Origin: a virus
Reading direction: 5' to 3' (one strand)
Length of the DNA stretch: 37,628 nt
Virus record (IMG/VR): IMGVR_UViG_3300037504_001227
Span: 1 to 37,628 of that record
The position numbers and the translations under genes were made by a program. The notes below the pieces were generated by a model. The model saw only the letters and a program-made list of their open reading frames with translations. It was not told the origin of the DNA and ran no database searches. Each line of letters starts with the position of its first letter. Position 1 is the stretch's first letter. Positions 899 through 28,788 of this stretch are shown one piece after another.

Positions 899-1270
899 AT
901 GAAACCAAGATCAGCTAAATCAAAAGGGATGACATTTCAAAAAGAAATCTGCAGACGTATTGCAAAATTACTGGGTATTGAATTTAATAATAAAGATGAT
1001 ACCTGCCCAATTCATTCTAGAGAATCAGGCCAATCCGGAACTGATGTTGTTATAAGAGATAAAAAATTATTAAAAAAATTTCCTTTTTCTATTGAATGTA
1101 AAAGAACAGAAAAATTACAGTTATATAAATCTATAAATCAGGCTCGGGAAAATAAATTACAAGAAACTGACTGGTTATTGATTGCAAGAAGAAATAGAGA
1201 AAATCCTATTGTAATTATGGATTTTGATACATTTGAAAAGTTATACAAAAATAACTATGCTTATTTATAA
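899..1270 (+). CDS. PD-(D/E)XK nuclease, phage Holliday-junction-resolvase-like
   Basis: This 123-residue protein matches the phage PD-(D/E)XK resolvase-like pattern. It has an N-terminal SKGMTFQKEI helix (E16), a GQSGTDVVI strand with D49, FPFSIECKR giving the E66-C-K68 catalytic pair, and a helix with Q81-A82. A late strand reads WLLIARRN. Such enzymes cut branched DNA or act as structure-selective endonucleases. A GGAG site lies 7 bases before the ATG. The last six codons are supplied by the first bases of intergenic repeat copy 1, so the C-terminus is set by the repeat. It sits with SbcC/SbcD-like genes, consistent with recombination or end processing. Confidence 0.78.
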   Translation: MKPRSAKSKGMTFQKEICRRIAKLLGIEFNNKDDTCPIHSRESGQSGTDVVIRDKKLLKKFPFSIECKRTEKLQLYKSINQARENKLQETDWLLIARRNRENPIVIMDFDTFEKLYKNNYAYL

Positions 1271-1501
1271 AATAAGATTGTTTATTTACAAGGCTTTACA
1301 AGGTTAAGGTTTTAAAAATAAAGATAAAAAAGGCTTAAAAACCTGTAAAGTATTGATAATAAACAATATACAGGATTTTTAACTTGTTAAATAACGTTAA
1401 AATAAGCAGTTTTATTTTAATTTTAATGTAATTATACTTATTTTAAAATAAAGTGGCTTAAAACGCTGTTATTTAATAGTTAATTTTTTGGAGTTTTAAA
1501 A
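1250..1501 (+). repeat. Long intergenic repeat, copy 1 (core orientation A)
   Basis: One of six related elements of about 245 bp, and the only one on the + strand, matching the local gene direction. It opens with AATAACTATGCTTATTTATA, then carries two TTTACAAGG motifs and a core at 1342-1374 bounded by CCTGTA and TACAGG. After that comes an AT-rich stem-loop with outer arms TTAAATAAC/GTTATTTAA. It ends in TTTTTTGGAGTTTTAAAA, shared with copy 2. The core reads CCTGTAAAG in the direction of transcription (orientation A). No ORF is present. It fills the gap between the nuclease and zinc-ribbon genes. Confidence 0.9.
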
Positions 1502-1566
1502 AATTTTAACATTTTTTATAAGAAAGTTAAAAAAATAATTATATTAATAATATATAGGAGGCAAAA

Positions 1567-1824
1567 ATGACCGATAAAGAATATAATGAAAAGCTAAAAG
1601 AGTTAAATATTAAAAATCAAGAAAAATTTAGTGTTTTTTTAGATAAAAGTATTAAATATTTAAATTTTATTTATAAAGACGAAAAAATAGTAACGGATGA
1701 AAATTATATATTATATAGTTTTCGCGATTATAGTTGTCCTGATTGTGGAGCGGTTATAAAAAGAAAAGATAATTTTTGTAATAATTGTGGAGTTAAATTG
1801 AATTGGAGATTAAAAGATGCTTAA
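1567..1824 (+). CDS. Small zinc-ribbon protein
   Basis: The 85-residue protein ends in a zinc ribbon: CPDCG, an 11-residue spacer, then CNNCG. The N-terminal 55 residues are predicted mostly helical and charged. It starts at an ATG behind AGGAGG at 1556-1561 and overlaps the following SbcD gene by 8 bases, so the two are translationally coupled. It is the first gene after repeat copy 1. Its role is unknown; the overlap suggests it works with the SbcCD-like complex. Confidence 0.65.
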   Translation: MTDKEYNEKLKELNIKNQEKFSVFLDKSIKYLNFIYKDEKIVTDENYILYSFRDYSCPDCGAVIKRKDNFCNNCGVKLNWRLKDA

Positions 1825-2680
1825 ATTTATTATTACTGGAGATTGGCATTTAAGACCTGATAATCCTGTTTGCAGAAAAGATAATTTTTTTAAAACACAA
1901 TATAAAACATTAGAATTTATAAAAAATTTAGCAATTGAAAATAATGCGGGTATCATAAATACTGGTGATATATTTCATAAACCTCGTTATCAATATCCAG
2001 ATATAATTTTAAACATAATAAGGGATATTTTTAAAAATATTCCTATTTATTATATAGCTGGTAATCATGATTTATTATTTCATAATTTAGAAAATATTAA
2101 AAAAGGCAATATAGGAATATTAAGTAGTTTTAAAAATTGGTATCATATCTCAAAATTCGATAATTTCGCTGGTTTTGATTATGGAAAAGATATAGAAAAT
2201 ACAACTAATGATTATGCTGTTATACATAAATATACTTCGGAAAAAAATTTACCTTTTTTTATAAAAAATGGAATTACTTCTGAAAATTTATCTAATTATG
2301 ATTATAAAACTATTTTTGCAGGCGATAATCATGAAGGTTTTATGGTTTTTAAAAATAATACATTAATTGTTAATCCTGGTTGTATAACTCGACAAACAAT
2401 AGATAAAAAAAATTATAAACCGCGAATTTATATTTACGATACAAAAAAAGATTCCTGCGTGCTTGTCTATCTCCCAGATAATAATATAGATGATATTGAT
2501 TCTGTATATATAGATGAAATTAAAAATAGAGAAAATAGAATTGATAGTTTTGTAGAAAAATTAAAGGGAAAAATAGATTTAAATTTATCTTTTGAAGATA
2601 ATATAAAAAAATATATAGAAGAAAATAATATTCAAAATGGAATTAAACAAAAATTATTGGAATGTATTAAAGAAAATTAA
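1817..2680 (+). CDS. sbcD: SbcD/Mre11-like DNA exonuclease subunit
   Basis: The 287-residue protein has all the metallophosphoesterase motifs of Mre11/SbcD in order: GDWH (D9, H11), GDIFH (D51), GNHD (N83, H84), a lone H137 and GDNH (D170, H172). These ligate two metal ions for 3'-5' exonuclease and endonuclease activity on double-stranded ends. It is shorter than cellular SbcD (about 400 residues), with a reduced C-terminal capping and coil-binding region, as is common in phages. Its partner should be the split SbcC encoded on both sides. It follows an 8-base overlap with the zinc-ribbon gene. T4 gp47 is the functional analogue. Confidence 0.88.
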   Translation: MLKFIITGDWHLRPDNPVCRKDNFFKTQYKTLEFIKNLAIENNAGIINTGDIFHKPRYQYPDIILNIIRDIFKNIPIYYIAGNHDLLFHNLENIKKGNIGILSSFKNWYHISKFDNFAGFDYGKDIENTTNDYAVIHKYTSEKNLPFFIKNGITSENLSNYDYKTIFAGDNHEGFMVFKNNTLIVNPGCITRQTIDKKNYKPRIYIYDTKKDSCVLVYLPDNNIDDIDSVYIDEIKNRENRIDSFVEKLKGKIDLNLSFEDNIKKYIEENNIQNGIKQKLLECIKEN

Positions 2681-2690
2681 GGAGTGAATT

Positions 2691-2942
2691 ATGAATGAAA
2701 ATTTAATACAAACATTATTAGAAAAAAAACAAGAGATTGAAGATGCTAAAATAAAAAAAGCAAATTTAACAGGTAGATTAGAAGAGTATCAATATCAGTT
2801 AAAAAATGAATTTGATTGTGATAATATTGAAGAGGCTAGCAAATTCTTAGAAAAAATTACCGATGAAATCGAAAAAGAATCTGAAAAATTACAATATGAT
2901 ATCAAAAATCTATTAGGGGAGATAGAAAAAAATGAAAACTGA
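2691..2942 (+). CDS. Coiled-coil protein, probable part of split Rad50/SbcC
   Basis: The 83 residues are almost entirely charged heptad-like helix (KKQEIEDAKIKKANLTGRLE and onward), with one conserved-looking FDCDNIEEA turn in the middle. An AAGGAG site precedes the ATG. The 3' end overlaps the Rad50 C-terminal gene by 11 bases in another frame. It looks like a segment of the descending Rad50 coil encoded as its own polypeptide, but it has only one Cys, so it does not carry the second hook half. An independent small coiled-coil partner is also possible. Confidence 0.5.
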   Translation: MNENLIQTLLEKKQEIEDAKIKKANLTGRLEEYQYQLKNEFDCDNIEEASKFLEKITDEIEKESEKLQYDIKNLLGEIEKNEN

Positions 2943-3543
2943 TTTAGAAAAATTGCAAAAATTTCTAAATAATAAACAGGGAGAATTAGAAATTTTGCGA
3001 AAATCTCTAAACGGAAATAGAAAAAACAGAAAAAATGCTAAATTAAATCTAGTACAATCAGAAAAAGCTCAAAAAATAATACAAGAAGTTGCTCAACAAA
3101 CACAAGAACAAATTAAATTTCATATTGAAGATATTGTTACAATGGCATTGGATGTAATTTTTCCTGATCCGTATCAATTTGAATTAGAATTTGTAGTTAA
3201 ACGAAATAAAACTGAATGTGATATGTGGTTTGTAAAAAATGAAAAAAAAATAAAACCAATTGATGCCGCAGGCGGTGGTGTAATTGACGTTGCTAGTTTC
3301 GCTTTAAGAATTGCTTTATGGAATTTAAAAAAAGGGAAAAAAAATAACACAATCATATTAGATGAAGCATTTCATTTTTTGAGTAAAGATTTACATGAAA
3401 AGGCAGGAGAATTATTAAAAAAATTAAGTGATAAATTAGGAATACAATTTATCCAAGTTACACATTCTAATGAATTAATAAATTCATCAGATAAAGTTTT
3501 TAAAATTATTAAAAAAAATGATAATAGTATCATCTATAATTAA
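2932..3543 (+). CDS. C-terminal half of split Rad50/SbcC ATPase
   Basis: The 203-residue protein carries the second ATPase lobe of an SMC-like ATPase. A coil covers residues 1-65, an ABC signature-like segment AAGGGVIDVAS lies at 112-122, Walker B TIILDE at 140-145 has catalytic E145, and the H-loop VTHS has H178. It lacks Walker A, which must come from the N-terminal gene at the left edge. Paired with SbcD it would clear hairpins or ends during replication or recombination, as T4 gp46/47 do. It is the last gene of the rightward operon and overlaps the coiled-coil gene before it. Confidence 0.82.
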   Translation: MKTDLEKLQKFLNNKQGELEILRKSLNGNRKNRKNAKLNLVQSEKAQKIIQEVAQQTQEQIKFHIEDIVTMALDVIFPDPYQFELEFVVKRNKTECDMWFVKNEKKIKPIDAAGGGVIDVASFALRIALWNLKKGKKNNTIILDEAFHFLSKDLHEKAGELLKKLSDKLGIQFIQVTHSNELINSSDKVFKIIKKNDNSIIYN

Positions 3544-3622
3544 ATTTTTATTAATGCATTTTTATATGGAGAAGGGTTTTGAAAAAATAAAAAAAATTAA
3601 AATTATATCTCTTTTTAAATAA

Positions 3623-3665
3623 AAACCCGGCATGATTGAGCGTGAAACAGAGGCTTGCCGGGTTT
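3623..3665. terminator. Bidirectional terminator at convergent junction
   Basis: A perfect 10-bp stem AAACCCGGCA/TGCCGGGTTT encloses 23 bases between the converging ends of the SbcC-like gene (3543) and the lipoprotein gene (3683). On the minus strand it is followed by TTTTTATTT, a good U-tract; on the plus strand only TTTCC follows. It is one of the few GC-rich spots in the region. Confidence 0.8.
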
Positions 3666-3682
3666 CCTAATTAAGGAGCCAA

Positions 3683-3961
3683 TTATTTTTTTAATTTTTC
3701 TTTTGTATTTATCACAATCACATTCCTACCATCAGCTAAATCAATCTGATGTTCTAAGAAATCTATATGATCTTTCATTATATTTATTTGCATAAGCAAA
3801 TCTTTTATAAATTTTTTATAATCTTCTTTTGCATATTTTTGTTTTAAAACAATATCATAATCTCTAATATGTATAATAGCATATTCATTTGTCTTGCAAG
3901 ATGTCATTAGCGATATTGACAAGATCATTAATACTATTAGCATTATTAATATTTTTTTCAT
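3683..3961 (-). CDS. Small lipoprotein, candidate outer-membrane spanin (Rz1-like)
   Basis: This 92-residue protein has a lipoprotein signal: MKK, a hydrophobic run, then LMTSC with the acceptor Cys at 22. The mature part is short, charged and helical. Its first 77 bases overlap the end of the preceding TM/coil gene in another frame, the arrangement of Rz/Rz1 pairs, where an inner-membrane coil and an outer-membrane lipoprotein join to fuse the membranes at lysis. The usual Pro-rich stretch is absent, so the call rests on architecture and location after the holin-like gene. It is the last gene of the leftward array. Confidence 0.55.
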   Translation of the reverse strand: MKKILIMLIVLMILSISLMTSCKTNEYAIIHIRDYDIVLKQKYAKEDYKKFIKDLLMQINIMKDHIDFLEHQIDLADGRNVIVINTKEKLKK

Positions 3962-4154
3962 ATTTTTTACTCCTTTCTCGTAATTTTTTCCTAAAATATT
4001 CTTTGTCTAACTCATTTTGTTTATTAATTTTAAAATTTTCTTTTTTCTTTTTCTCTAATAATTTTTTAAATATTATATTAACTATTAAAGAAATTAAAAA
4101 TAATAACCAGGGTAAAATTTTAATAATAATTCCTATAATTTGAATAATTGTCAT
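3885..4154 (-). CDS. Membrane-anchored coiled coil, candidate inner-membrane spanin (Rz-like)
   Basis: This 89-residue protein has one N-terminal hydrophobic segment (about 4-28) with almost no preceding residues, then a Lys/Glu-rich coiled coil to the end. This is the i-spanin layout, with the coil projecting into the periplasm. Its ATG overlaps the stop of the holin-like gene at 4154, and its 3' end overlaps the lipoprotein gene by 77 bases. Order and overlaps match a holin/Rz/Rz1 lysis module. An unrelated small membrane protein cannot be ruled out. Confidence 0.55.
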   Translation of the reverse strand: MTIIQIIGIIIKILPWLLFLISLIVNIIFKKLLEKKKKENFKINKQNELDKEYFRKKLRERSKKYEKNINNANSINDLVNIANDILQDK

Positions 4155-4387: not shown

Positions 4388-4396
4388 TATAACTCC

Positions 4397-5065: not shown

Positions 5066-5075
5066 TTCAATATCC

Positions 5076-5627
5076 TTATTTATTTAAAATTATTCTTAAA
5101 AAATCTCCTGGAAAATCAGGCATAACAGGAAATATGTTTGTATTATTAATATCAATCTCATCATATGTATAATTTTTCAAATCAATATCTTGGCTTAAAA
5201 AACTCATTTTCTCAAACCAAATTACCCAATCATCATATAATTGTTCAGTAATCAATCTGTCCTTTAAATTAATTCCTTTGCTATGTCCATACTCTTGCGC
5301 TGTCCAAACACTATTTATCCAAGTGGAGGCATTCAATAAATTAACCCTGATCTGATCTAATTTTTCTTTTTTCATAGTGGTAGTATTCAATAAAGCATCT
5401 ATTTCTGCTTGTATTTCCTGATAATCTTTTTTTATTAATTTTTCATTTTGATAATAATAATTATAAACGAATAAATCAGGTTTGATATATGTAAATAATT
5501 TCATTTTACAATGCCTCCCGGCATTTTCAAAAATTAATATAGAATCTTGATCAGGTTTTTTAAATGCATCAGAAAATGCTTCTATAACATTATTATCATT
5601 ATCTATTTTTATATAATGATTATTCAT
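5076..5627 (-). CDS. Hypothetical protein after the tail fibres, possible fibre-assembly protein
   Basis: The 183-residue protein begins YIKIDNDNNVIEAFSDAF, a beta-rich opening resembling N-termini of some tail-fibre assembly or XkdW-like proteins, but the match is weak. The middle (about 75-125) is helical; the C-terminus is acidic and aromatic. It is the first gene downstream of repeat copy 2 and uses AGGAGG just beyond the repeat. No membrane segment or signal is present. Function is unassigned. Confidence 0.5.
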   Translation of the reverse strand: MNNHYIKIDNDNNVIEAFSDAFKKPDQDSILIFENAGRHCKMKLFTYIKPDLFVYNYYYQNEKLIKKDYQEIQAEIDALLNTTTMKKEKLDQIRVNLLNASTWINSVWTAQEYGHSKGINLKDRLITEQLYDDWVIWFEKMSFLSQDIDLKNYTYDEIDINNTNIFPVMPDFPGDFLRIILNK

Positions 5628-5645
5628 TCATACCTCCTATTTTTT

Positions 5646-5896
5646 TTAAAACTCCAAAAAATTAACTATTAAATAACAGCGTTTTAAGCCACTTTATTTT
5701 AAAATAAGTATAATTACATTAAAATTAAAATAAAACTGCTTATTTTAACGTTATTTAACAAGGTAAAAATCCTGTAAAGTACTGATAATAAACAATATAC
5801 AGGATTTTAACTGTTTTTTATCCTTATTTTTAAACCCTTAGCCTTGTAAAGCCTTGTAAATAAACAATCTTATTTTATAAATAAGTATAGTTATTT
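5646..5896 (-). repeat. Long intergenic repeat, copy 2 (core orientation B)
   Basis: Element between the tail-fibre gene and the lysis-side genes, oriented with leftward transcription. It shares its downstream end (TTTTTTGGAGTTTTAAAA on the minus strand) with copy 1. It carries two TTTACAAGG motifs (5849-5872), a core at 5771-5803 and the two-part stem-loop. In the direction of transcription the core reads CCTGTATATTG, inverted relative to copy 1, while the flanks keep the same orientation. Confidence 0.9.
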
Positions 5897-5899
5897 ATT

Positions 5900-7054
5900 C
5901 TATAAACTTATCTCTGCATCTGCTGTATAAAAACCACTTAGAATTGCACCACCAGCTAAACTAGCAGAAGCAACTGCCAAACCTGTTGAATGTTCCCCTT
6001 GATACAATTCATTACTAACTGCAACATCTACTGAACCAACATTATCATATACATTATCAACATTTCCAGAATTATTAGACCACCATTTCATTGTTGGAAC
6101 ATCGCGTTTTTTACTAGCAAATGCTTTTTGTAATTTCAAAAATGTGCCCGCAATATTATGTTCTACAACGATAGCCCCTTGGTTTGTAATTGTTCCGGGA
6201 TCAGTATTAATATCATAAGATTTTTCATAATATCTTTGTGCTCTTAAAATTTCCAATGATAAATCTACAACAGTTTCTCTTATAGGTAATTTTCCTAAAT
6301 TAAATGTTATCCCGGTTATATAAAAATTATTAGCAGTGTTATCACATACATTAACTTGATTGGTGGAGCAAAAATAATTTCCAGTTTGCCATGCATCAGC
6401 AGAGGTTTGGTAAGTCGTTCCCCCAGCTAAACACCAACTAATTCTTAACCCTGCTCCATTTGTATAATCCCACGTTCCAGCAGATTCATCTAATTCAATT
6501 GTTATGGTTTTATATTCCCATGTATCAGCACTATCAACAGTATATTCAACAACATAACTTCTATCTTTACCATCATTTCGAAATGCTACACAATGTATTC
6601 CAGTTTTTGGACTTCTAACCCAAAATCCTAATGTTACAAAATGTGTAAGATATTTTCTAATATTATAACCTTCGATAACGTGAGTGATAGCACAATAATC
6701 ACCTGCAGCAATAGAAGCGTCTGCAGTAGTAACATCAATTTTCATAGAATAATTAAATTTAGTGTTTGGGAGAATTGATGCCTCTCTTGAAATAGTATGA
6801 ACCATTGCGCCTGATTTTTCATAACCCATTCTATCAGCCGTATAATCACCATCTGCAACTGCTGCAAAGGAAGAACCTCTTTGCCAAATATCCAACCCTC
6901 CATTTATTATTTCATTCATACACAAATATGATTGAATAAAATCAGAAGGCAACATTTTTTTATCTTCTGCTAATGCGTCTTTATACCCCATTAACAAATA
7001 ATGATTATCATCTAATAGTGTTAAATCATCGGTAGCGTTATAAATCCTAGGCAT
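5900..7054 (-). CDS. Tail fibre / carbohydrate-binding protein
   Basis: This 384-residue protein contains the block INGGLDIWQRG...YTADRM (about 50-75), typical of a receptor-binding module near the C-terminus of many phage tail fibres. A beta-rich jelly-roll-like region follows up to about residue 255. The N-terminal 45 residues (RIYNATDDLTLLDD) probably attach to the previous fibre or baseplate protein. The last 120 residues are Gly/Ala/Ser-rich beta. It ends in TAG directly before repeat copy 2 and follows the propeller protein by 12 bases. Confidence 0.75.
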   Translation of the reverse strand: MPRIYNATDDLTLLDDNHYLLMGYKDALAEDKKMLPSDFIQSYLCMNEIINGGLDIWQRGSSFAAVADGDYTADRMGYEKSGAMVHTISREASILPNTKFNYSMKIDVTTADASIAAGDYCAITHVIEGYNIRKYLTHFVTLGFWVRSPKTGIHCVAFRNDGKDRSYVVEYTVDSADTWEYKTITIELDESAGTWDYTNGAGLRISWCLAGGTTYQTSADAWQTGNYFCSTNQVNVCDNTANNFYITGITFNLGKLPIRETVVDLSLEILRAQRYYEKSYDINTDPGTITNQGAIVVEHNIAGTFLKLQKAFASKKRDVPTMKWWSNNSGNVDNVYDNVGSVDVAVSNELYQGEHSTGLAVASASLAGGAILSGFYTADAEISL

Positions 7055-7066
7055 TTTTTAAACTCC

Positions 7067-8590
7067 TTATTTATATAAATATTGTTTATCGTCTATATCA
7101 TATAATGTTTTAAAATTATTTACATACCAAGTTTTAGTCGCTCCTTCTCTGTTTTTATAAATAGTTATATAAGGGCTCCCACCATGAGCGACTGCTAAAT
7201 AGTTACCATCATAGGAAAAAGGACAACCTCTTGCTACAGCAGTAGGTAGAGTTGCAGGATTAGTTAATTTAGTAAAAGTGTCCCCACTCCTTTTATAAAT
7301 AGTAATATAAGGGCTTGAAGAATGAGCAACTGCTAAATAGTTACCATTATAGGAAAAAGCACAATCTTGTGCGGTTCCGGTTGGTAGAGTTGCAGGATTA
7401 GTTAATTTAGTAAATGTATCTCCGCTCCTTTTATATATAGTAATATAAGGGCTTGCAGCATGAGCAACTGCTAAATAGTTACCATCATAGGAAAAATCAC
7501 ACCCATATCCAACACCAGCAGGTAGGGTCCCCGGATTAGTTAATTTAGTAAAAGTGTCCCCACTCCTTTTATAAATAGTAATATAAGGGCTTGCAGAATG
7601 AGCAACTGCTAAATAGTTACCATCATAGGAAAAAGCACATCCAAACCCTATTCCAGTAGGTAGGGTCCCCGGATTAGTTAATTTAGTAAATGTATCTCCG
7701 CTCCTTTTATATATAGTAATATAAGGGCTTGAAGAATGAGCAACTGCTAAATAATTATCATCACGAGAAAAGGAACAATCTTGTCCATCTCCAGCAGGTA
7801 GGGTCCCCGGATTAGTTAATTTAGTAAATGTATCTCCGCTCCTTTTATATATAGTAATATAAGGGCTCCCATCATGAGCAACTGCTAAATAAGTTCCGTT
7901 ATAAGAAAAGTGACAACCTTGCCCGGCATCAGCAGGTAAGGTTCCCGGATTAGTTAATTTAGTAAATGTATCTCCGCTCCTTTTATAAATAGTGATATAA
8001 GGGCTTAGATCATGAGATACTGCTAAATAAGTTCCGTTATAAGAAAAAGCACATCCATATCCAGTGCTAGGAGGCAAAGTTGCAGGGTTAGATAATTTAC
8101 TCCCAGGTTCAATCCTTGCTAATCCAGTTCCTTTATAAATTAATTGTAAACTACTTTTTGAAGGTAAAATTAATTGTCCATCTGTGCCTTTCGTTGTAAA
8201 AAATTTATTTAATTCTGTTATGACTTCTTCTGCATTTGATTGTTGAATAATAGCCTGATCTTCTGTATATATTTCTATTATTTCGCCTTCATCAACATCT
8301 GATGTTGGTAATGTTAATGTTATAGTATCTGTACATTTATATTTATTTTGTATTTCTAAATTCGTATCTGAATCAATATTTACATAAGATTGTAATCCTA
8401 TTGTATAATTTAGAAATTTATAATATTCATATTTTAACCAATTTTCATACTCCCGAGAGGGTTTCTCTAATCTATCCCAGCCCTGACTTTTTTTAGTAGC
8501 ATTTGGAATAATTTTATTATTTACTCCTGTAACCGGGTCTGCGACATTTGTTAATGCCCACTCTATATTAGTAATATCTGGTTTTGCCAT
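7067..8590 (-). CDS. Tail fibre with seven 46-residue beta-propeller-like repeats
   Basis: The 507-residue protein has an N-terminal region of about 165 residues, then seven consecutive 46-residue repeats and a short C-terminal tail. Each repeat follows the pattern LTNPGTLP, a variable stretch, CxFSYDGNYLAVAH, two variable residues, SPYITIYKRSGDTFTK. The SYDGxYLAVAH and ITIYKR strands resemble WD40-like blades, so a closed seven-bladed propeller is likely. Seven copies are nearly identical at the DNA level (138-bp unit, 7150-8110) except in two short loops, probable ligand-contact sites. It lies between a DUF2612-like baseplate protein and a second fibre, as expected for host recognition. Confidence 0.8.
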   Translation of the reverse strand: MAKPDITNIEWALTNVADPVTGVNNKIIPNATKKSQGWDRLEKPSREYENWLKYEYYKFLNYTIGLQSYVNIDSDTNLEIQNKYKCTDTITLTLPTSDVDEGEIIEIYTEDQAIIQQSNAEEVITELNKFFTTKGTDGQLILPSKSSLQLIYKGTGLARIEPGSKLSNPATLPPSTGYGCAFSYNGTYLAVSHDLSPYITIYKRSGDTFTKLTNPGTLPADAGQGCHFSYNGTYLAVAHDGSPYITIYKRSGDTFTKLTNPGTLPAGDGQDCSFSRDDNYLAVAHSSSPYITIYKRSGDTFTKLTNPGTLPTGIGFGCAFSYDGNYLAVAHSASPYITIYKRSGDTFTKLTNPGTLPAGVGYGCDFSYDGNYLAVAHAASPYITIYKRSGDTFTKLTNPATLPTGTAQDCAFSYNGNYLAVAHSSSPYITIYKRSGDTFTKLTNPATLPTAVARGCPFSYDGNYLAVAHGGSPYITIYKNREGATKTWYVNNFKTLYDIDDKQYLYK

Positions 8591-9293: not shown

Positions 9294-10751
9294 TTATAAA
9301 GTATCAACCTCTATCCTACTAACCGCAAACTCCGCTTTTTCCCTATCTCCAATACTAATATTAGTCGCAGAATAAACAGGGACATGAGGCAAAGTATCAC
9401 TAGAATCTAATTCAATTAAAATAGAACTAATTCCAGGTATTTCATATACAGGAATACTTAACCTCTGTCTTATAACATCTTTTCCAACGTTGATATTATT
9501 AGTGTTTAAACTCCAATCAACAATTGCATCTTTAATTAAATCATCACCATCATCTGGATAATCTTCCTCAGAATATAGACTTCTTTTTACTCTTACAAAA
9601 ATATAAATAGGTTCACTCCTACTAAATTTAATAACCTGCGTGTAACCCTGTGAATCAGTAATATTGATAGTAGTATTTCCATAGCTATTAATACCAGCAG
9701 GTTGGGTTTCCCATATTTTTTCAGCAATATCATTATCATCCCCTCCTTCTATTACACATTCGAATGTGTGTGGAGGACGACTTTCACTATCTGTGCTAGC
9801 AGTGCGATTACTATATATAGTAACATCAGTTATATTATCAACATCATTTAGCAAATTCCCTCTTATCGCTTCCTCAGTAGCATTTCCAATACCAGCGATA
9901 CTTTGCTCTCTCCTTATCCGTAAATCTTCATTAGTTTCAGTATCTCTTCCAGTTGTCCCTGCCTGATAATTTCTTGCATCATTCCAACCTACTACCGGAG
10001 TTACGATTTCTGTTAATGATTCTGCTGGCACTGTTATTGCACCTAATGTGTTACATGTAAAATCTCCAGCACTTCCAACCTCATCAATATCCAAATTTCC
10101 AGTAATAGAAAAACTAAAATCAGTATCATCATCTTGTAATTGCAATTGTTCATTATCAGTATCGACAGTAGCAGTCCCTGCCCATGTACCAGCAGTTATA
10201 GAAGATTGTAAATCATTTAGAATATCAACTTTACTCTCTCCGCCGCCTGCGGTATATGTATAGGTAGTACCATCAATCGTAACTTTATAATCACCAGCGG
10301 CAACGGTTGTTACAGAAATTAAACCCCATCTCGCATCCGCTTTATCTATTGTTACATTACTGTCTAGTGTAAATTCAATACTGGTGTCAGGTTCATCTGG
10401 CTGTCTTAATTTTTTCCCAGCTGCTATTGTAGTAGCATCATCTCCCTGTAAAATAACCTCTTCAACGGTTGTATAAGTCGCATCTAATCTTTCAAGCGCA
10501 TTCTCAGCTACTATATAATCTAAACTTGTCCCTATTGCTTCGGCAGGATTTCTCGCCGTATAGATTTCTTGTGCTAAATCCCACAGATCAGCTTTATCAT
10601 TTGCTAATTTTGCTATTAATTGACCAAAATTAGAAGAAGCCTCTAAATCTATATTTTCGCCAAATATTTCTTTAAACCCATCTTCCAAATCTTCTTTTAT
10701 TTCTGCAAATGTTTTTGTTTGTAAACCTGTCGAAGTTATATATATTCCCAT
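9294..10751 (-). CDS. Baseplate J-like protein (Mu gp47 type)
   Basis: The 485-residue protein has the baseplate J signature: ITSTGLQTKTFAEIKEDL at the start, ENIDLEASSNFGQLIAKLA at about 35-55, TARNPAEAIGTSLDYIVAEN, and later NYQAGTTGRDTETNEDLRIRRE with ATEEAIRGNLL. It forms wedge subunits around the hub. Residues about 145-230 are an inserted beta domain (YKVTIDGTTYTYTAG) that resembles inserts in the sheath and cement proteins here. Its start context, AGAGGATTAGGAAAAAATGGG, is shared with the head-closure gene because both follow closely related repeat copies (3 and 4). Confidence 0.88.
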   Translation of the reverse strand: MGIYITSTGLQTKTFAEIKEDLEDGFKEIFGENIDLEASSNFGQLIAKLANDKADLWDLAQEIYTARNPAEAIGTSLDYIVAENALERLDATYTTVEEVILQGDDATTIAAGKKLRQPDEPDTSIEFTLDSNVTIDKADARWGLISVTTVAAGDYKVTIDGTTYTYTAGGGESKVDILNDLQSSITAGTWAGTATVDTDNEQLQLQDDDTDFSFSITGNLDIDEVGSAGDFTCNTLGAITVPAESLTEIVTPVVGWNDARNYQAGTTGRDTETNEDLRIRREQSIAGIGNATEEAIRGNLLNDVDNITDVTIYSNRTASTDSESRPPHTFECVIEGGDDNDIAEKIWETQPAGINSYGNTTINITDSQGYTQVIKFSRSEPIYIFVRVKRSLYSEEDYPDDGDDLIKDAIVDWSLNTNNINVGKDVIRQRLSIPVYEIPGISSILIELDSSDTLPHVPVYSATNISIGDREKAEFAVSRIEVDTL

Positions 10752-10767
10752 TTTTTCCTAATCCTCT

Positions 10768-11008
10768 AAAAATTAACTATTAAATAACAGCCTTCTAAGC
10801 GGTTTTATTTTAAAATATATATAATTACCCTAAAATAATTTTAAAACCGCTTATTTTAACGTTATTTAATAAGGTAAAATCCCTGTATATTGTTTATCAT
10901 CAATAGTTTACAGGTTTTTAACTGTTTTTTATCCTTATTTTTAAAACCTTAATTCTGTAAACCCTTGTAAATAAACAATCTTATTTTATAAATAAGCATA
11001 GTTATTTA
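10768..11008 (-). repeat. Long intergenic repeat, copy 3 (core orientation A)
   Basis: Between the gp25-like and baseplate J genes. Core at 10882-10914 in orientation A. The inner stem of the downstream structure is perfect over 11 bp (10797-10807 with 10842-10852, AAGCGGTTTTA type). The outer arms are 10780-10788 and 10861-10869. The downstream end matches copy 4 through the ribosome site and start codon of the next gene. Confidence 0.9.
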
Positions 11009-11009: not shown

Positions 11010-11417
11010 TTATATATTAAATCTTCTTGTTATAGTTTCTTCTTCTCCTATATCAACTTCTAATTCTACTGTTAAAGTCCTTGTAGAAGTTTCTAATGTT
11101 AAATCTAAATTTACAATATCTTCTACTTCATCAATATCTAAAATTTCATTTCTAAATAATGTTTTTATATAATTTAAATCTGGATTTTTTATATGTATAC
11201 CGGTTCCTCTAATTCGTCTACCAAATTCATCTTTTTCTCCAAAATAAGGCAAACCTAAATTTTTATTTAGTGGCCATTCGCCCTTTACAAATAATAATTT
11301 TTCTGTTATTTTTTGTGAAACATATTGTGTTTTATTTTTAGAAATTCTTAAATCATAATTTTCAACAATTAAATCATTGTTGGTTTCATCATTATATAAA
11401 TCAAATCTACTAGCCAT
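11010..11417 (-). CDS. gpW/gp25-like baseplate wedge protein
   Basis: The 135-residue protein has the gp25/gpW lysozyme-like fold pattern: an N-terminal strand with LYNDETNNDLIVENYDLR, YVSQKITEKLLFVKGEWPLNK, GLPYF, and a C-terminal region with NPDLNYIKTLFRNEILD and beta strands. In contractile tails it docks the wedge to sheath and tube and helps start sheath assembly. It overlaps no neighbour; 3 bases separate it from the spike gene upstream. Its stop is directly at the edge of repeat copy 3. Confidence 0.85.
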   Translation of the reverse strand: MASRFDLYNDETNNDLIVENYDLRISKNKTQYVSQKITEKLLFVKGEWPLNKNLGLPYFGEKDEFGRRIRGTGIHIKNPDLNYIKTLFRNEILDIDEVEDIVNLDLTLETSTRTLTVELEVDIGEEETITRRFNI

Positions 11418-18167: not shown

Positions 18168-18938
18168 TCATTCTCCTTCAATATTATAATCTACATCATA
18201 TTCTGCATAACCAGAATCAAATGAACCTGTTCCATTTACATTTTTAATATATGATGTATCTTCCGTCGTTTTATTTGTATAACAAATATACAAATCAACG
18301 TTAAATCGTTTTTTGAATAAATTCTCTATATTTGCAGGAATAGCAGTTACAGGCTCATTTCTCAAAAATGATATTCCTAACTCCCGCATTTTATCCATGT
18401 TAATTTGCCATTTGCTCTTTTCTATAATTTCTAATAATTTATCACCAAAACCATTTAATTCTTCAATAGATATCGTAGATTCATATTTTTGATAATAATC
18501 TAAATTACCAGTATCATCTGTACTATTAGCAGAATAAATCCTACCAACTGGGATTTGGGTAGGAGGATGTATCAACAAATATGTAGTAGGATTTTCAAAA
18601 CCATTTTTTTCAGGAGCAGGAGTTGATTCTTCTTCTACTATTATTCTTGTAACATCGCTTGTATATGAACTATCTCCAGTACCCGTATCATTCAGATAAT
18701 TATATTTTAATGTTAAAGTAGTTTCATTATCAACCGAATCTATCTCATACCATTGTCCATTATCATTTAATTTTACATACCCACCGGCACTTATAATAGC
18801 ACCAGTTATAAAATCAGTCCCGGTAACTGTTTTGGATCCCTTCGTAAATGTACAGGTACCAATATCACTATTTGGATTTATTATAAAATCTATCCAATCG
18901 TATACAGCATTTAAAAGGCTATTGGTAGAAATACTCAA
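18168..18938 (-). CDS. Neck/tail terminator-like protein with inserted beta domain
   Basis: The 256-residue protein has a core like phage neck terminator proteins: residues 1-22 SLLNAVYDWIDFI, then TTYLLIHPPTQIPVGRIYS, ELNGFGDKLLEIIEKSKW and a C-terminal FKKRFNVDLYIC. Residues about 27-108 are an insert (TCTFTKGSKTVTGTDF, WYEIDSVDNETTLTL) of a type found in phage decoration and fibre proteins. This may add a surface domain at the neck. It overlaps the head-closure gene by 4 bases and the sheath gene start. Confidence 0.65.
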   Translation of the reverse strand: MSISTNSLLNAVYDWIDFIINPNSDIGTCTFTKGSKTVTGTDFITGAIISAGGYVKLNDNGQWYEIDSVDNETTLTLKYNYLNDTGTGDSSYTSDVTRIIVEEESTPAPEKNGFENPTTYLLIHPPTQIPVGRIYSANSTDDTGNLDYYQKYESTISIEELNGFGDKLLEIIEKSKWQINMDKMRELGISFLRNEPVTAIPANIENLFKKRFNVDLYICYTNKTTEDTSYIKNVNGTGSFDSGYAEYDVDYNIEGE

Positions 18939-19282
18939 CTGTCCTCCCTCCTAAATTCTGCATAATATTTATAATGATTTATTATCCCAGATTGCCAAGG
19001 TTCTTTTGCAATTATTTCATATAAATCATTTTGAAATAATACCAAATCTCCTGTATAATCCTCATCAGGTTTACAAATTTGTAACTCTTCATCTGTATAA
19101 CATTTAATTTTCCCTACATTTCTCCTACCGACATTCATATTCTCTAATTCTTTTCCTGTAACTGGTTGGACACTCATAGAAATTGTTAAATCTGCTCTAT
19201 CCCCAGGTGTCCATTGACCCTTTATGTAGGTTCCTCCAGACATTCTTTTAACTGTATAATCATTTCTAAATGGATTGCCCAT
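18935..19282 (-). CDS. Head closure / head-tail joining protein
   Basis: The 115-residue protein is beta-rich, with GTYIKGQWTPGDRADLTISM, SVQPVTGKELENM, and YTGDLVLFQNDLYEIIAKEPW. This is the usual pattern of small head-tail stoppers between connector and tail-completion proteins. It follows repeat copy 4 and shares its start context with the baseplate J gene. Assigned by pattern and order. Confidence 0.68.
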   Translation of the reverse strand: MGNPFRNDYTVKRMSGGTYIKGQWTPGDRADLTISMSVQPVTGKELENMNVGRRNVGKIKCYTDEELQICKPDEDYTGDLVLFQNDLYEIIAKEPWQSGIINHYKYYAEFRREDS

Positions 19283-19290
19283 TTTTTCCT

Positions 19291-19536
19291 AATCCTCTAA
19301 AAATTAACTATTAAATAACAGCCTTCTAAGCGGTTTTATTTTAAAATATATATAATTACCCTAAAATAATTTTAAAACCGCTTATTTTAACGTTATTTAA
19401 CAGGTTAAAAATCCTGTATATTGTTTATTATCAATACTTTACAGGTTTTTAAGCCTTTTTTGCCCTTATTTCTAAACCTTTAATTCTGTAAACCCTTGTA
19501 AATAAACAATCTTATTTTATAAATAAGCATAGTTAT
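19291..19536 (-). repeat. Long intergenic repeat, copy 4 (core orientation A)
   Basis: Between the gp10-like and head-closure genes. Core at 19413-19445 in orientation A. The stem arms match copy 3 (AAGCGGTTTTA type), and the downstream end is identical to copy 3 into the next gene. Its upstream spacer reads AAAAAAGGCTTAAAAA as in copy 1, so copies are mosaics of one another. No ORF is inside. Confidence 0.9.
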
Positions 19537-19989
19537 TTATTCTATTTTTATATCAATAGAATTTACTAATTGTCCCTTATCAATTAATGGTTTTGAACTT
19601 CCTTTTTTTCTAATAGTTTCTGGCTTAAGCGGTTTAAAATCTCCATTTCTTATTTTATCTTGTATTTTTTCTTTCATAAATAAACCTATGGATTTTAAAA
19701 AACCTCCTGTTAAACTTTTTGATACTAGAAATTTATCTGTTAATTTATTTGTCTTTTTCATTAATTCTTTATTTTGTTCATCAAACGATGTCCGCATAAA
19801 TGAACGTTTAGGAATTCTCCTATCTTTTGTTCCAAACTCATGGATGGCTGCTCTTGCCGCAATATTAGTTTTAGGAGAATCTCCCTGTCCCCAATAACCA
19901 ATTTTTACGGTTTGATTATTTAAAGAAAATAATCCTTTTTGAATTTTATTCCATCCTAAATCTTTGTCTATTACTATTGTTCTACTCAT
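19537..19989 (-). CDS. HK97 gp10-like tail completion protein
   Basis: The 150-residue protein shows the gp10/virion-morphogenesis pattern: VKIGYWG, AARAAIHEFGTKDRRIPKRSFMRTSFD, and a C-terminal GDFKPLKPETIRKKGSSKPLIDKGQLVNSI. The IHEFG and PxRSFMR blocks are characteristic. It helps complete the tail and join it to the head. Its ATG touches the stop of the gene before it, and its TAA is at the edge of repeat copy 4. Confidence 0.82.
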   Translation of the reverse strand: MSRTIVIDKDLGWNKIQKGLFSLNNQTVKIGYWGQGDSPKTNIAARAAIHEFGTKDRRIPKRSFMRTSFDEQNKELMKKTNKLTDKFLVSKSLTGGFLKSIGLFMKEKIQDKIRNGDFKPLKPETIRKKGSSKPLIDKGQLVNSIDIKIE

Positions 19990-22384: not shown

Positions 22385-22399
22385 AAAATAATTATCCCC

Positions 22400-22822: not shown

Positions 22823-22849
22823 AAATCTAACTCCTTAATAGTTTTAAAT

Positions 22850-23821: not shown

Positions 23822-23833
23822 TTATTCTCCTCC

Positions 23834-25191: not shown

Positions 25192-25803
25192 ATTTTTTCC
25201 TCCATCGTCATTATTATCTATATACAAACTATCATTAATTAGGATAGCTTCATTACTGTCCAGTCGCATCACTGCTAAATCACCAGCTCTACCTTTATCA
25301 ACTATTGCCACATGATTATATCTGATATTTCTTTGTATAGCATCATAAGGGACTCCCATCCAATTTCCAGGAGTAAAATCTAAATCTGCTATATAACCAC
25401 AAGACAAAGCTCTCTTCCCATTTTTTATGTCATTTATTGATTTTTCGTCTCTTATTGATATTGGAACAGATACTGCATAAGAATCTTTATATACAGAATC
25501 TCCAGTTGTGCCTATTTCATATTTTTTAACATTATCAATTGTAACTAAATCTTTTGGATGATTGTTTGTAATTGGTTTTAATCTTAAAGTATTTAAACTA
25601 TTTTCATCAAATACCTCTTCCGGAGGTCTTAATTCTCGTATAATTTTTCCATCTTTATCCCTGTATGTAAATACTCCAACATTTGTAACAATAGGTGTCC
25701 CTGTAATAAACCCCTCTTTTTCTTCTCTAAATATATCAGTTAATATATATTTAGTCTCGTCCATTAAATCATAATGCTGTTTATTTTTAATTTCTTTTGG
25801 CAT
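24607..25803 (-). CDS. Capsid maturation protease fused to scaffold (DUF2213-type)
   Basis: The 398-residue protein has a DUF2213-like N-terminal half: EGFITGTPIVTNVGVFTY, ELRPPEEVFDENSLNTLRLKPITNNHP, ALSCGYIADLDFTPGNWMGVPYDAIQRNIRYNHVAIVDKGR. H at NHP and the SCGY and NHVA blocks are the usual conserved points. Residues 205-398 form a Lys/Glu-rich coiled scaffold. An internal ribosome site and ATG at 25191 would make that scaffold alone. Repeat copy 5 is directly upstream, so the head operon probably starts inside or near it. Confidence 0.82.
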   Translation of the reverse strand: MPKEIKNKQHYDLMDETKYILTDIFREEKEGFITGTPIVTNVGVFTYRDKDGKIIRELRPPEEVFDENSLNTLRLKPITNNHPKDLVTIDNVKKYEIGTTGDSVYKDSYAVSVPISIRDEKSINDIKNGKRALSCGYIADLDFTPGNWMGVPYDAIQRNIRYNHVAIVDKGRAGDLAVMRLDSNEAILINDSLYIDNNDDGGKNMSDNLKRIVLDGVDYQAEAAVVTAYTQIKKDNEKVKKDFDNFKTEKQKELSQLQANLDTANDKLNKANEEIEKLKNETISDEAIEKAVQEKVELKDNAKKAGIEKTDGKSNLDIKKEIIMKVFPEAKLDEKDVIYIDARYDSAIDILKTENENTINNKKKVFGNLPKNDGSEVIIDSKKAYRDYIDRLNGKEDK

Positions 25804-25819
25804 TTTTTATCCTATATGC

Positions 25820-26060
25820 AAAAAATTAACTATTAAATAACGGCGTTTTAAGCCACTTTATTTTAAAATAAGTATAATTATACTAAAATAATTTTAAAAC
25901 CGCTTATTTTAACGTTATTTAATAAGGTAAAAATCTTGTAAAGCACTGATAATAAACAATATACAGGTTTTTAACTGTTTTTTATCCTTATTTTTAAAAC
26001 CTTAACCTTGTAAAGCCTTGTAAATAAACAATCTTATTTTATAAATAAGTATAGTTATTT
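25820..26060 (-). repeat. Long intergenic repeat, copy 5 (core orientation B)
   Basis: Directly upstream of the protease/scaffold gene and directly downstream, in the leftward direction, of the terminator at 26093-26122. Core at 25935-25967 in orientation B, with one boundary diverged to CTTGTA. The stem centre has AGTATAATTATACT, including TATAAT. Since no gene lies between the terminator and this copy, head-gene transcription must pass the terminator or begin within this element, which makes it the best copy in which to look for promoter activity. Confidence 0.9.
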
Positions 26061-26092
26061 ATTTTATAAAACTATACTCTAATAAATAAAAA

Positions 26093-26122
26093 AGGCATTT
26101 ATCGACCTAACGATAAATGCCT
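26093..26122 (-). terminator. Terminator upstream of repeat copy 5
   Basis: A perfect 12-bp stem AGGCATTTATCG/CGATAAATGCCT with loop of 6. On the minus strand it is followed by TTTTTATTT; on the plus strand by AAGTTTTTC. It separates the rightward structured locus from the leftward head operon and may work in both directions. Confidence 0.85.
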
Positions 26123-26186
26123 AAGTTTTTCTCTTACATTTATTTTTTTAAAAGGAGTACAAAATAAATATATAATTTTTTTACTA

Positions 26187-26217
26187 TTTTTACAAGTATA
26201 TTTATAAATTGTAAAAA
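26187..26217 (+). promoter_or_regulatory. Inverted repeat, possible operator
   Basis: TTTTTACAA and TTGTAAAAA face each other across 13 bases, about 35 bases upstream of the -35 box of the structured locus. TTTACAA is also the core of the TTTACAAGG motifs in the six intergenic repeats, so one phage regulator could bind both. AT-rich inverted repeats arise easily by chance here, so confidence is modest. Confidence 0.35.
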
Positions 26218-26251
26218 AATGTAAAATAATAAATAAAATTAAAAAAAATAC

Positions 26252-26279
26252 TTGACTTATTATAATAATATGTTATTAT
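26252..26279 (+). promoter_or_regulatory. Sigma70-like promoter of the structured RNA locus
   Basis: TTGACT at 26252-26257 and TATTAT at 26274-26279 are 16 bases apart, and TG at 26271-26272 precedes the -10 as in extended -10 promoters. A start near 26286 puts a 9-bp hairpin (AAGTTGCTT/AAGCAACTT, 26288-26309) at the very 5' end of the RNA. It is the clearest host-type promoter I see in the window. Confidence 0.65.
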
Positions 26280-26320
26280 TAAATTATAAGTTGCTTAATA
26301 AAGCAACTTAAATAAATTAA

Positions 26321-26339
26321 AGCTGGGAGGCTGAAATGA
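26321..26339 (+). promoter_or_regulatory. Conserved 19-nt initiation block, copy A
   Basis: AGCTGGGAGGCTGAAATGA contains the Shine-Dalgarno GGGAGG and, 5 bases later, the ATG of the first ORF. The identical 19 bases recur at 26900-26918 before the second ORF. CTGGGAG here can pair with CTCCCAG at 26810-26816 in the 3' hairpin of the same unit, which could hide the ribosome site. Confidence 0.7.
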
Positions 26340-26806
26340 ATAAAAATCAAAAAGATATATTATCGTTAACAAAAACGATAATCAAAAATTCGAATATATC
26401 TTTAAAGATATATTCGAAAGAAGAAATCAAAAAAATAAAAATCTCCTGCGGGACAGGAGTTTTTGGATGGACAACAAACGAAGAGATTATAAAAAAATAT
26501 AATCTCGGATGTTCTGTCCAATTAGCAGGGGATGATAATGATTCTTTTGTTGTACCTGAAATAAAGACAATGAATTGTAAATCCAATTCATTGTCTTTAT
26601 TAAAAGAAGCCTTTAAAAAAATAAAGGCTTTAAAATTAAGAAAAAATATTGCAAGAAAAAGATTAAACCGAATAGCTGAAGAAATAGCTTATTCGGTATT
26701 AAAAAATATTAATATAAAAAGTGTACATATAAAAGAAAGACCTTGTCCTCCCCTAAAATGGGCGAACGAATGCAAGGTTTTAATAAATTGGGAGAGCAAT
26801 AGCTAA
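26336..26806 (+). CDS. ORF A of the structured locus, unknown protein
   Basis: The 156-residue product starts at the ATG in the conserved block and ends with a TAA placed in the loop of the first 3' hairpin. Residues 34-75 look beta-rich (KISCGTGVFGWTT, GCSVQLAGDDNDSFVV). Residues 85-130 look helical and basic (LLKEAFKKIKALKLRKNIAR). No family is recognised. A chance frame of this length is unlikely at this base composition, so it is probably translated, even though at least seven strong inverted repeats lie inside the codons. It runs opposite to the surrounding structural genes and could be a moron or early gene. Confidence 0.55.
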   Translation: MNKNQKDILSLTKTIIKNSNISLKIYSKEEIKKIKISCGTGVFGWTTNEEIIKKYNLGCSVQLAGDDNDSFVVPEIKTMNCKSNSLSLLKEAFKKIKALKLRKNIARKRLNRIAEEIAYSVLKNINIKSVHIKERPCPPLKWANECKVLINWESNS

Positions 26807-26840
26807 GCTCTCCCAGTAGGGATGGTGTAAAAGCCGTCTC
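26789..26840 (+). other. 3' hairpin pair, unit A (kissing-loop candidate)
   Basis: Stem TGGGAGAGC/GCTCTCCCA with 9-base loop AATAGCTAA (26789-26815) is followed after 3 bases by an 8-bp stem with loop GTAAAA (26819-26840, two or three G-U pairs). The same two loops recur in unit B on different stems. This second hairpin lacks a U-tract, so transcription should continue to unit B. Confidence 0.8.
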
Positions 26841-26884
26841 TGTAATGCAGCCAAGGCCGGTCGCAAGCCCGGGAAAATGCAGAG
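26838..26884 (+). other. GC-rich linker between the two units
   Basis: This noncoding stretch contains CTCTG (26838-26842) that can pair with CAGAG (26880-26884), enclosing CCGG/CCGG arms (26857-26860, 26869-26872) around loop TCGCAAGC. It is the most GC-rich stretch of the locus and is not explained by either ORF. Its first bases compete with the hairpin before it, which could allow a switch. Confidence 0.5.
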
Positions 26885-26899
26885 CGAAAAAAAATAAAT

Positions 26900-26918
26900 A
26901 GCTGGGAGGCTGAAATGA
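26900..26918 (+). promoter_or_regulatory. Conserved 19-nt initiation block, copy B
   Basis: Identical to 26321-26339, again with GGGAGG 5 bases before the ATG. AGCTGGGAG here can pair with CTCCTAGCT at 27181-27189, nine pairs including one G-U, so the ribosome site could be masked by the 3' module of its own unit. Confidence 0.7.
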
Positions 26919-27157
26919 GAAATATTTTAGTAGACACAAAAAATGATGTTATTGTTGCAATGAGTAACAAAAATATCAGATATGTTAAAAAAATAAATAG
27001 ACAATTGGAAATGGATCAAAATTCCAATTTGTCTAAAAGAGAAATATTGAACAAATTGAATAATTTGTTCAATATTATTCAAATAACAAACGAGGAATAT
27101 TCCTCGTTAAAAAAAGGAATTATTCCTGATAAATTTCCATATAGTTTATATTATTAA
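26915..27157 (+). CDS. ORF B of the structured locus, unknown protein
   Basis: The 80-residue product starts in the second conserved block: RNILVDTKNDVIVAMSNKN, then a helical region (LSKREILNKLNNLFNIIQ) and an aromatic end SLYY. I recognise no family and see no clear homology to ORF A. The codons contain a 13-bp stem with one bulge (26998-27035), a 15-bp perfect stem with a 4-base loop (27043-27076) and a 20-base palindrome (27089-27108). The stop lies just upstream of the 3' hairpin pair. Confidence 0.5.
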   Translation: MRNILVDTKNDVIVAMSNKNIRYVKKINRQLEMDQNSNLSKREILNKLNNLFNIIQITNEEYSSLKKGIIPDKFPYSLYY

Positions 27158-27159
27158 TA

Positions 27160-27186
27160 TAGGAGCGCAATAGCTAAGCGCTCCTA
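27160..27186 (+). other. 3' hairpin with AATAGCTAA loop, unit B
   Basis: Stem TAGGAGCGC/GCGCTCCTA with the same 9-base loop as unit A. Relative to unit A, two base pairs have changed on both sides (G-C to A-T, and A-T to C-G), so pairing is preserved while sequence differs. That is direct covariation within one molecule. Confidence 0.85.
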
Positions 27187-27190
27187 GCTG

Positions 27191-27219
27191 GAGGCAGTGT
27201 AAAAACTGCCTCTTTTTTT
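27191..27219 (+). terminator. Rho-independent terminator of the structured locus
   Basis: Perfect 8-bp stem GAGGCAGT/ACTGCCTC with loop GTAAAA, then TTTTTTT (27213-27219). The loop is the same as in the non-terminating hairpin of unit A. It also reaches the stop codon of the leftward gene at 27218. Confidence 0.9.
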
Positions 27220-27379
27220 ATCCCTTATGATAATTATCAGGCCCAATTCTTTCCCTTTTCTGCACTTCAATATCAATTTTATTTTTTCCTAAAACATGTA
27301 TAACAACCTTCCCATATTCTATATTTTTTAATTTCTCTTTTATAATTTCACAAGTAGATTGAATTAAATTATCATTCAT
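27218..27379 (-). CDS. Small hypothetical protein after the MuF-like gene
   Basis: A 53-residue frame starts at ATG 27379, 8 bases after the TAG of the MuF-like gene, with AGGGG as ribosome site, and ends in TAA at 27218. The product begins MNDNLIQSTCEIIKEKLKN and continues with GKVVIHVLGKNKIDIEVQKR, a helix followed by two beta strands. The tight spacing and good composition favour a real gene. Function unknown. It ends within the U-tract of the opposing terminator. Confidence 0.6.
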   Translation of the reverse strand: MNDNLIQSTCEIIKEKLKNIEYGKVVIHVLGKNKIDIEVQKRERIGPDNYHKG

Positions 27380-27387
27380 ATAAGCCC

Positions 27388-28530
27388 CTATATTTTATTT
27401 AACAAACTATCCCACCCAGGATTACTGCCACACCTGCATTGATAATCAGAGCCAGGAATCCCAATGTATCCATTTATCCCAGCCCTTGAAACCCAATCAA
27501 CACCATTATTAAAACTAATCACAGTATCATCATCCCATCTACATAGCCCACCATGTAAATTATTATGTTTAGGTCTAACTCGTTCGTCCCTGCTAGTTAT
27601 CCAGAAATAGGTTTCAATTCCTACCTCTGTTTGACGTTTTTTTGTTAACCTTCCATTTAATTTATTAACCTGATCCCTAGCTATCAACTCACTCCTGCTT
27701 TGTACCTTTTTTCTTCTTTTTTTACCTGTCTTTTTATCTATTACAGTTTTAGTTCTTCCAGTATATATTCTTTTATCAATCTTAATAAGTTCTTTTTCTA
27801 TAAAATCATGTGTCCGGCCTTCCTGCATACCTCTATATATAGTCTCAACAAATTTTTTTCTATACTCATTACTTAATCCTTTTATTAATGCGACATTTTC
27901 CCTGACCCAATTTTTAGAAATTGTATTTGTCCAACTTTCAGGCATTATATATTCAAAATTTAATTTTTCTTTAAATATTTTTTTAAATTGTTTTAAATTA
28001 AATTTATTTACCAATCCGAAAAAGAAAAATAATTTAGCGTTTAATCCTTCTTTTTGTTCATCAAATATTTCTTTTTCAGTTTTATCATATTTATCTAAAT
28101 TTTTATCAAGCTCATCTTGCCAATCATCTTTTATATAATTATCCTGTATTCTATTTTTATTTTCCTCGCCCCACCTTTCTAAATTTGGAATAATTTGTTT
28201 TTTTAAAATATTTCTAAATGGTTCAGAAATATCTAATATTTCTTTATTATATTTATTTATCATTGTTTTAGGAGGATCAATCCATTTTTTAGTTTTACCT
28301 TTTTTTATTTTTAACTTTCCAGTTTCTTTTAATGCTCTTAATTGAGATAATATATATTGTTCAGAATCAATAGAATCTTTTTTATAATTATCTTCTGGAA
28401 ACTCTCCCCCACCTATTGCCAACGCCTGAGCAATCGCTTTTTCTTTTGCATTCCTGCCAATATAACAGGTTCCCGACTCTCCCCATTTCCAACCTCTTTG
28501 ACCACTTTTTGTACATCTCTGAATTGGCAT
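27388..28530 (-). CDS. MuF-like head morphogenesis protein
   Basis: The 380-residue protein has the phage Mu gpF / SPP1 gp7 C-terminal domain: ELIARDQVNKLNGRLTKKRQ, WITSRDERVRPKHNNLHGG, GIPGSDYQCRC. The N-terminus (IQRCTKSGQRGWKWGESGTCYIG, then a helical segment) carries Cys pairs and may bind the portal. In the family this minor head protein is needed for infectivity and lies inside the capsid. AGGAGG at the end of repeat copy 6 provides its ribosome site. It is separated from portal by repeat copy 6 and a 74-residue gene. Confidence 0.85.
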   Translation of the reverse strand: MPIQRCTKSGQRGWKWGESGTCYIGRNAKEKAIAQALAIGGGEFPEDNYKKDSIDSEQYILSQLRALKETGKLKIKKGKTKKWIDPPKTMINKYNKEILDISEPFRNILKKQIIPNLERWGEENKNRIQDNYIKDDWQDELDKNLDKYDKTEKEIFDEQKEGLNAKLFFFFGLVNKFNLKQFKKIFKEKLNFEYIMPESWTNTISKNWVRENVALIKGLSNEYRKKFVETIYRGMQEGRTHDFIEKELIKIDKRIYTGRTKTVIDKKTGKKRRKKVQSRSELIARDQVNKLNGRLTKKRQTEVGIETYFWITSRDERVRPKHNNLHGGLCRWDDDTVISFNNGVDWVSRAGINGYIGIPGSDYQCRCGSNPGWDSLLNKI

Positions 28531-28546
28531 TTTTTCTTGACCTCCT

Positions 28547-28788
28547 AAAAATTAACTATTAAATAACGGTGTTTTAAGCCTCTTTATTTTAAAATAAGTA
28601 TAATTACACCAAAATAATTTTAAAACCGCTTATTTTAACGTTATTTAATAAGGTAAAAATCTTGTAAAGCACTGATAATAAACAATATACAGGTTTTTAA
28701 CTGTTTTTTATCCTTATTTTTCAACCCTTAGCCTTGTAAAGCCTTGTAAATAAACAATCTTATTTTAATAATAAGCATAGTTATTTTT
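28547..28788 (-). repeat. Long intergenic repeat, copy 6 (core orientation B)
   Basis: Between the small gene after portal and the MuF-like gene. Core at 28661-28693 in orientation B, almost identical to copy 5 including the CTTGTA boundary. The first bases of the element (AATAACTATGC) supply the stop codon of the upstream gene. Confidence 0.9.

Follow-up and report, generated by a model that had tools for sequence, protein, structure and literature searches.

A dispersed non-coding cassette in six sense-oriented copies in the genome of a contractile-tail phage

Short non-coding cassettes that occur several times between the genes of a single phage have been described in T4-type phages as promoter-early stem-loop cassettes (PeSLs) (Arbiol et al. 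2010; Comeau et al. 2014; both cited in PMC4503421), and the account in PMC4503421 describes them as carrying regulation and mediating module shuffling. In bacteria, MITEs of the ERIC, Correia, and RUP types are 100 to 250 bp long, AT-rich, palindromic, and intergenic, and they can alter the transcript (PMC10969869). The put antitermination leaders of phage HK022 are a further point of comparison, being foldable non-coding phage sequences located upstream of genes.

The DNA analyzed here (the window; 37,628 nucleotides of IMG/VR record IMGVR_UViG_3300037504_001227) is the genome, or a large fragment of the genome, of a 37.6-kb contractile-tail phage encoding portal, MuF, protease, MCP, sheath, tape measure, and baseplate J proteins. 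It contains six related non-coding cassettes, c1 to c6 (Table 1), which are co-linear and gapless over 240 to 255 bp and share 81 to 94% identity. A 40-base probe taken from the left end has exactly six matches in the window at up to 3 mismatches and 0 in shuffled sequences. The copies have no ORF in common, and the longest start-to-stop frame, of 27 codons, is not shared. Every copy faces the same way as the gene that follows it, c1 on the + strand in a + strand operon and the other five on the − strand with − strand genes, an arrangement with a chance probability of 1/64. A first-pass annotation had reported co-oriented repeats of about 245 bp, free of ORFs, at positions 1250, 5646, 10768, 19291, 25820, and 28547; each of these points is borne out, with the copies reaching 255 bp. 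The cassette is a real, lineage-specific, dispersed non-coding unit that carries no gene. Repetition of another type is found at 7015 to 8142 (−), where seven tandem 138-bp units lie inside ORF 7067-8590, which likely encodes a repetitive fibre or beta-propeller-like protein.

Table 1. Positions of the six cassettes, their internal sites, and the neighboring terminator-like hairpin in the window
Feature	Position	Strand	Setting or remark
Cassette c1	1249-1503	+	Between PDDEXK/RusA-like ORF 899-1270 (ends inside c1) and zinc-ribbon ORF 1567-1824
Cassette c2	5642-5896	−	Between tail-fibre ORF 5900-7054 and ORF 5076-5627; inner segment flipped
Cassette c3	10753-11007	−	Between gp25-like wedge ORF 11010-11417 and baseplate J-like ORF 9294-10751
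Cassette c4	19284-19538	−	Between Neck1-like ORF 19537-19989 and ORF 18935-19282
Cassette c5	25806-26060	−	Upstream of head protease/MCP operon; inner segment flipped
Cassette c6	28532-28786	−	Between ORF 28781-29029 (ends inside c6) and MuF-like ORF 27388-28530; inner segment flipped
Part of invariant central block, TTAAATAACGTTAAAATAAGC	1393-1407	+	Approximately alignment columns 139-159; found without mismatch in the six cassettes and nowhere else
24-bp site 1 of c1, ATTGTTTATTTACAAGGCTTTACA	1277-1300	+	Motif match
24-bp site 1, other copies	5845-5868, 10956-10979, 19487-19510, 26009-26032, 28735-28758	−	Equivalents of site 1 of c1
24-bp site 2 of c1	1344-1367	−	Inside quasi-palindrome CCTGTA..TACAGG; strand opposite to site 1
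24-bp site 2 of c3 and c4	10889-10912 (c3), 19420-19443 (c4)	+	Strand opposite to site 1
24-bp site 2 of c2, c5, and c6	5773-5796, 25937-25960, 28663-28686	−	Same strand as site 1
Terminator-like hairpin	26093-26122	−	Stem of 12 bp and a T run; ranks first among intrinsic terminator-like hairpins in the window; lies upstream of c5 at a distance of 33 bp

Relatives were retrieved with the terminase and capsid proteins, which yielded 86 related viral loci (1.24 Mb, some overlapping), and a profile of the element had zero matches in them even at an E value of 10. Exact 25-mer, 19-mer, dyad, and 24-mer patterns had 0 matches in viral contigs, as did a 21-mer in genome contigs, and blastn of the element against phages and plasmids returned nothing above chance. 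The gene pair that flanks c3 lies at most 12 bp apart in 7/7 relatives, and the genes that flank c4 are at most 41 bp apart, often overlapping, in 41 of 46. Because these junctions are short and empty in syntenic relatives, the comparison marks at least c3 and c4 as insertions, in this lineage, into existing tight operon junctions. The gene order across the copies agrees with that of the relatives, which makes an assembly artefact an unlikely source of the copies. The insertion sites also qualify the earlier placement of the repeats at module borders, which is partly right and provides no general rule, since c3 separates two baseplate-wedge genes and c4 two neck/connector genes, both inside a functional module. 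The accompanying claim that each repeat fits between a stop codon and the next ribosome site does not apply to c1 and c6, whose upstream stop codon is inside the element, or to c5, which has no stop codon ahead of it and instead has the terminator-like hairpin and two divergent + strand genes upstream of it. The left end of every copy supplies stop codons in two or three frames, as borne out by the two upstream ORFs (899-1270 and 28781-29029) that end inside the element.

One relative, G002 (65 kb), is syntenic with the window across the structural region. Short look-alikes of the element in this genome are within chance, and its 122-bp intergenic repeat (locus L013, 6296 to 6416 and 9109 to 9223, in opposite orientation) is not this element; it has TTGACT-TATAAT sigma-70-like promoters and repeated TGTAAA motifs and is likely an early promoter/operator region. 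A 101-bp repeat in loci L079 and L020 is no cassette; it is coding and corresponds to a domain that occurs in two structural genes. An inversion between c1 and c2 is possible on paper and is unsupported by the gene order of G002. The TerL of G002 (L015, 4425 to 6878) is an 817-amino-acid ORF whose match to the TerL of the window is split in frame by about 1.2 kb, which suggests an intein, and the match of its DnaX-like clamp loader (L015, 16771 to 18597; 608 amino acids) is split by about 0.9 kb, possibly by another intein.

The copies have exchanged parts with one another and are mosaics: of 325 informative site pairs lying outside the flipped segment, 120 cannot be fitted to a single tree. 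In two pairs the likeness continues beyond the right end that all six have in common and takes in the ribosome site and start codon downstream: c3 and c4 are identical for 21 bp more (AGAGGATTAGGAAAAAATGGG), up to ATGGG, and c1 and c2 for 15 bp more (TGGAGTTTTAAAAAA). The gene downstream of c3 begins MGIYIT, matching MGAYIT in G002, and so ATGGG was probably native at c3 and then copied to c4, a direction that we infer from this match. The first-pass annotation had proposed homology tracts that allow phages to swap modules; recombination among the copies agrees with the homology part of this idea, but the module exchange that it predicted, with breakpoints in the elements, did not turn up, the element being absent from the related loci. 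An element-mediated swap of the MuF N-terminal domain beside c6 was considered and rejected as evidence of such exchange, since in locus L050 MuF carries this domain although the element is missing. This short domain (CTKSGQRGWKWGESGTCYIG.., window 28400 to 28530) is present on MuF in the window and in L050, on the protease in several relatives, and alone in L069 (loci L014, L017, L019, L032, L033, L050, and L069), a distribution that marks it as a movable head-gene domain.

In the six-copy alignment, near-invariant stretches occupy the left end (columns 1 to 45), the right end (220 to 240), and a central block (139 to 159), and the four longest invariant blocks are clustered in these end and middle positions with a permutation P value of 0.00045. 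A 24-bp motif, ATTGTTTATTNNCAANNCTTTACA, has 12 matches in the window, two per element and none outside the elements, against 0.11 expected. An internal segment of 33 to 43 bp, overlooked in the first-pass annotation, is reversed in c2, c5, and c6 relative to c1, c3, and c4, with the result that the paired 24-bp motifs are direct in the former and inverted in the latter. Small inversions linked to hairpins are common in other genomes, for example in chloroplast DNA. The flip of the inner quasi-palindrome would most simply arise by hairpin-mediated template switching; it is probably a by-product of the palindromic ends of the segment and need not be a switch.

The main rival to a regulatory origin is a MITE-like non-autonomous element that would have been mobilized by a transposase outside the record and would have survived only where it is harmless, in the sense orientation and from stop to start. 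Size (all copies are under 500 bp and have no ORF), AT richness, internal palindromes, intergenic sites, and invariant ends are typical MITE traits (PMC10969869), the junctions entered by the cassette are empty in relatives, and a weak 7-bp terminal inverted repeat, TAACTAT/ATAGTTA (P of 0.013 to 0.023 in shuffles), is flanked by TA in all six copies; the first-pass annotation had seen no terminal inverted repeats. Against this origin, no target-site duplication is visible outside the shared ends, either in the flanks or in the empty junctions of relatives, apart from a possible 2-bp TA duplication; AAATA and TAATTTTT are common to all six copies and are thus part of the element rather than six targets. 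The right ends differ between pairs, with extra flank shared by c1/c2 and by c3/c4, and together with the missing duplications this argues against precise transposition. No transposase or recombinase was found among the window ORFs tested, nor, among those searched, a transposase or autonomous relative sharing the ends of the cassette, with pattern scans also empty; the sampled relatives, phages, and plasmids hold no copy, and all six copies are in sense. The cassette is therefore comparable to ERIC, Correia, and RUP elements in size range, AT-rich palindromic makeup, and intergenic position, but it has a variable right end and a strictly sense orientation, resides in a phage with no partner transposase, and fails MITE membership on target duplication and transposase. 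The earlier judgment that a standard transposable element is unlikely is upheld by the same evidence, and we consider a MITE-like origin possible though doubtful.

A structured RNA leader or intercistronic RNA, acting in put-type antitermination, RNase III processing, or mRNA stabilization, would account for the long complementary arms of c1 to c4, whose sense strand folds better than shuffles (z of −4.1 to −6.0; −4.15 for c1 with its flank), but z is only −1.7 in c5 and −0.8 in c6. None of the 72 consensus pairs shows a two-sided change across the six copies, and lost Watson-Crick pairs have turned into G-T and A-C about equally often (7:6, 5:5, 5:4, 7:2, 4:6, and 4:4 with c1 to c6 as the reference copy), which gives no indication that the RNA strand is under selection. 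The flipped segment also alters the 5′ fold, and an Rfam search with the element matched no family. The cassette is, moreover, far longer than HK022 put, is present in six copies, and lies mostly inside the structural region. We regard an RNA leader as unlikely, and the processing site suggested earlier is likewise weakened. The DNA-level palindromes with no RNA-strand bias, the paired 24-bp sites, and the recombination of the copies would suit duplicated sites that serve some DNA process other than transcription (a replication origin or iteron-like sites, packaging sites, or recombination hot spots). Such sites would not be expected to show strict sense orientation and between-gene placement, and no replication protein or recombinase gene lies beside most copies, so that this is the least likely of the explanations weighed.

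The c5 setting bears most directly on transcription. The protease gene is at 25803, and c5 fills nearly all the space after the terminator-like hairpin; of the about 290 bp available for driving the head operon, most is c5. A promoter function of the cassette is suggested mainly by this terminator, although the hairpin could instead be part of the inserted + strand gene pair (26336-27157). That two-gene insert (26140-26340 and 26336-27157), antisense between MuF and the protease, has its own sigma-70-like promoter, TTGACT-16-TATTAT, at 26252-26279(+), with matching GGGAGGCTGAAATGA start regions. In a check for stem-loop terminators, the dyad CCTGTA..TACAGG, A-rich/T-rich with a T run, had only 3 G-C pairs and a long loop. 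The combined terminator/promoter unit proposed in the first-pass annotation may still apply, with the c5 setting as the one argument for its promoter half and with no sigma-70 site common to all six copies.

We consider it about an even chance (probability of roughly 0.5) that the six copies are a lineage-specific, dispersed regulatory or leader cassette acting in transcription. This reading draws on the six sense copies, the empty junctions, the absence of any copy from the 86 related loci, the mosaicism, the shared flanks, the invariant blocks, the paired 24-bp sites, and the terminator at c5. Against it stand the lack of a sigma-70 promoter in all six copies, though the virus has a good site of this type in the + strand insert, and the positions of c3 and c4 away from obvious transcription-unit borders; no cognate regulator was identified, and no cassette-bearing relative was found among the 86 loci. 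On this reading, recombination driven by homology or microhomology, and not a transposase, would have copied the cassette. The stop codons of its left end would close the upstream reading frame, the paired sites and conserved blocks of its interior would be where a phage-specific or host transcription factor binds and transcription starts, and its right end would lead into a ribosome site, so that each copy may restart expression of the gene set behind it. A more elaborate version, in which a stop-to-start expression cassette spreads within one genome with no transposase and carries an operator of two sites, the inner one invertible, through which a single control signal would be set differently from operon to operon, is quite improbable. 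In occurring as multiple short non-coding cassettes between the genes of one phage, the element behaves like the PeSLs as PMC4503421 summarizes them, a likeness drawn from description; relative to that summary, it is about 245 bp long, lies mostly in the structural-gene region, has weak hairpins and no recognizable early promoter, and offers no demonstrated shuffling between phages. Because it fails on the early promoter, the one PeSL feature that can be cleanly tested, we do not file it as a PeSL.

For a genome of about 38 kb, six long repeats that recombine with one another are a burden and would be expected to cause loss of the intervening genes; that all have been kept in sense orientation suggests that they are used. 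The c3 and c4 junctions offer clean empty-site comparisons for what may be a regulatory cassette entering a tight phage operon, with the ribosome site apparently copied along, and the paired 24-bp motif provides a handle for finding the regulator. The cassette is a sequence-level example of dispersed cassettes outside the T4-type phages.
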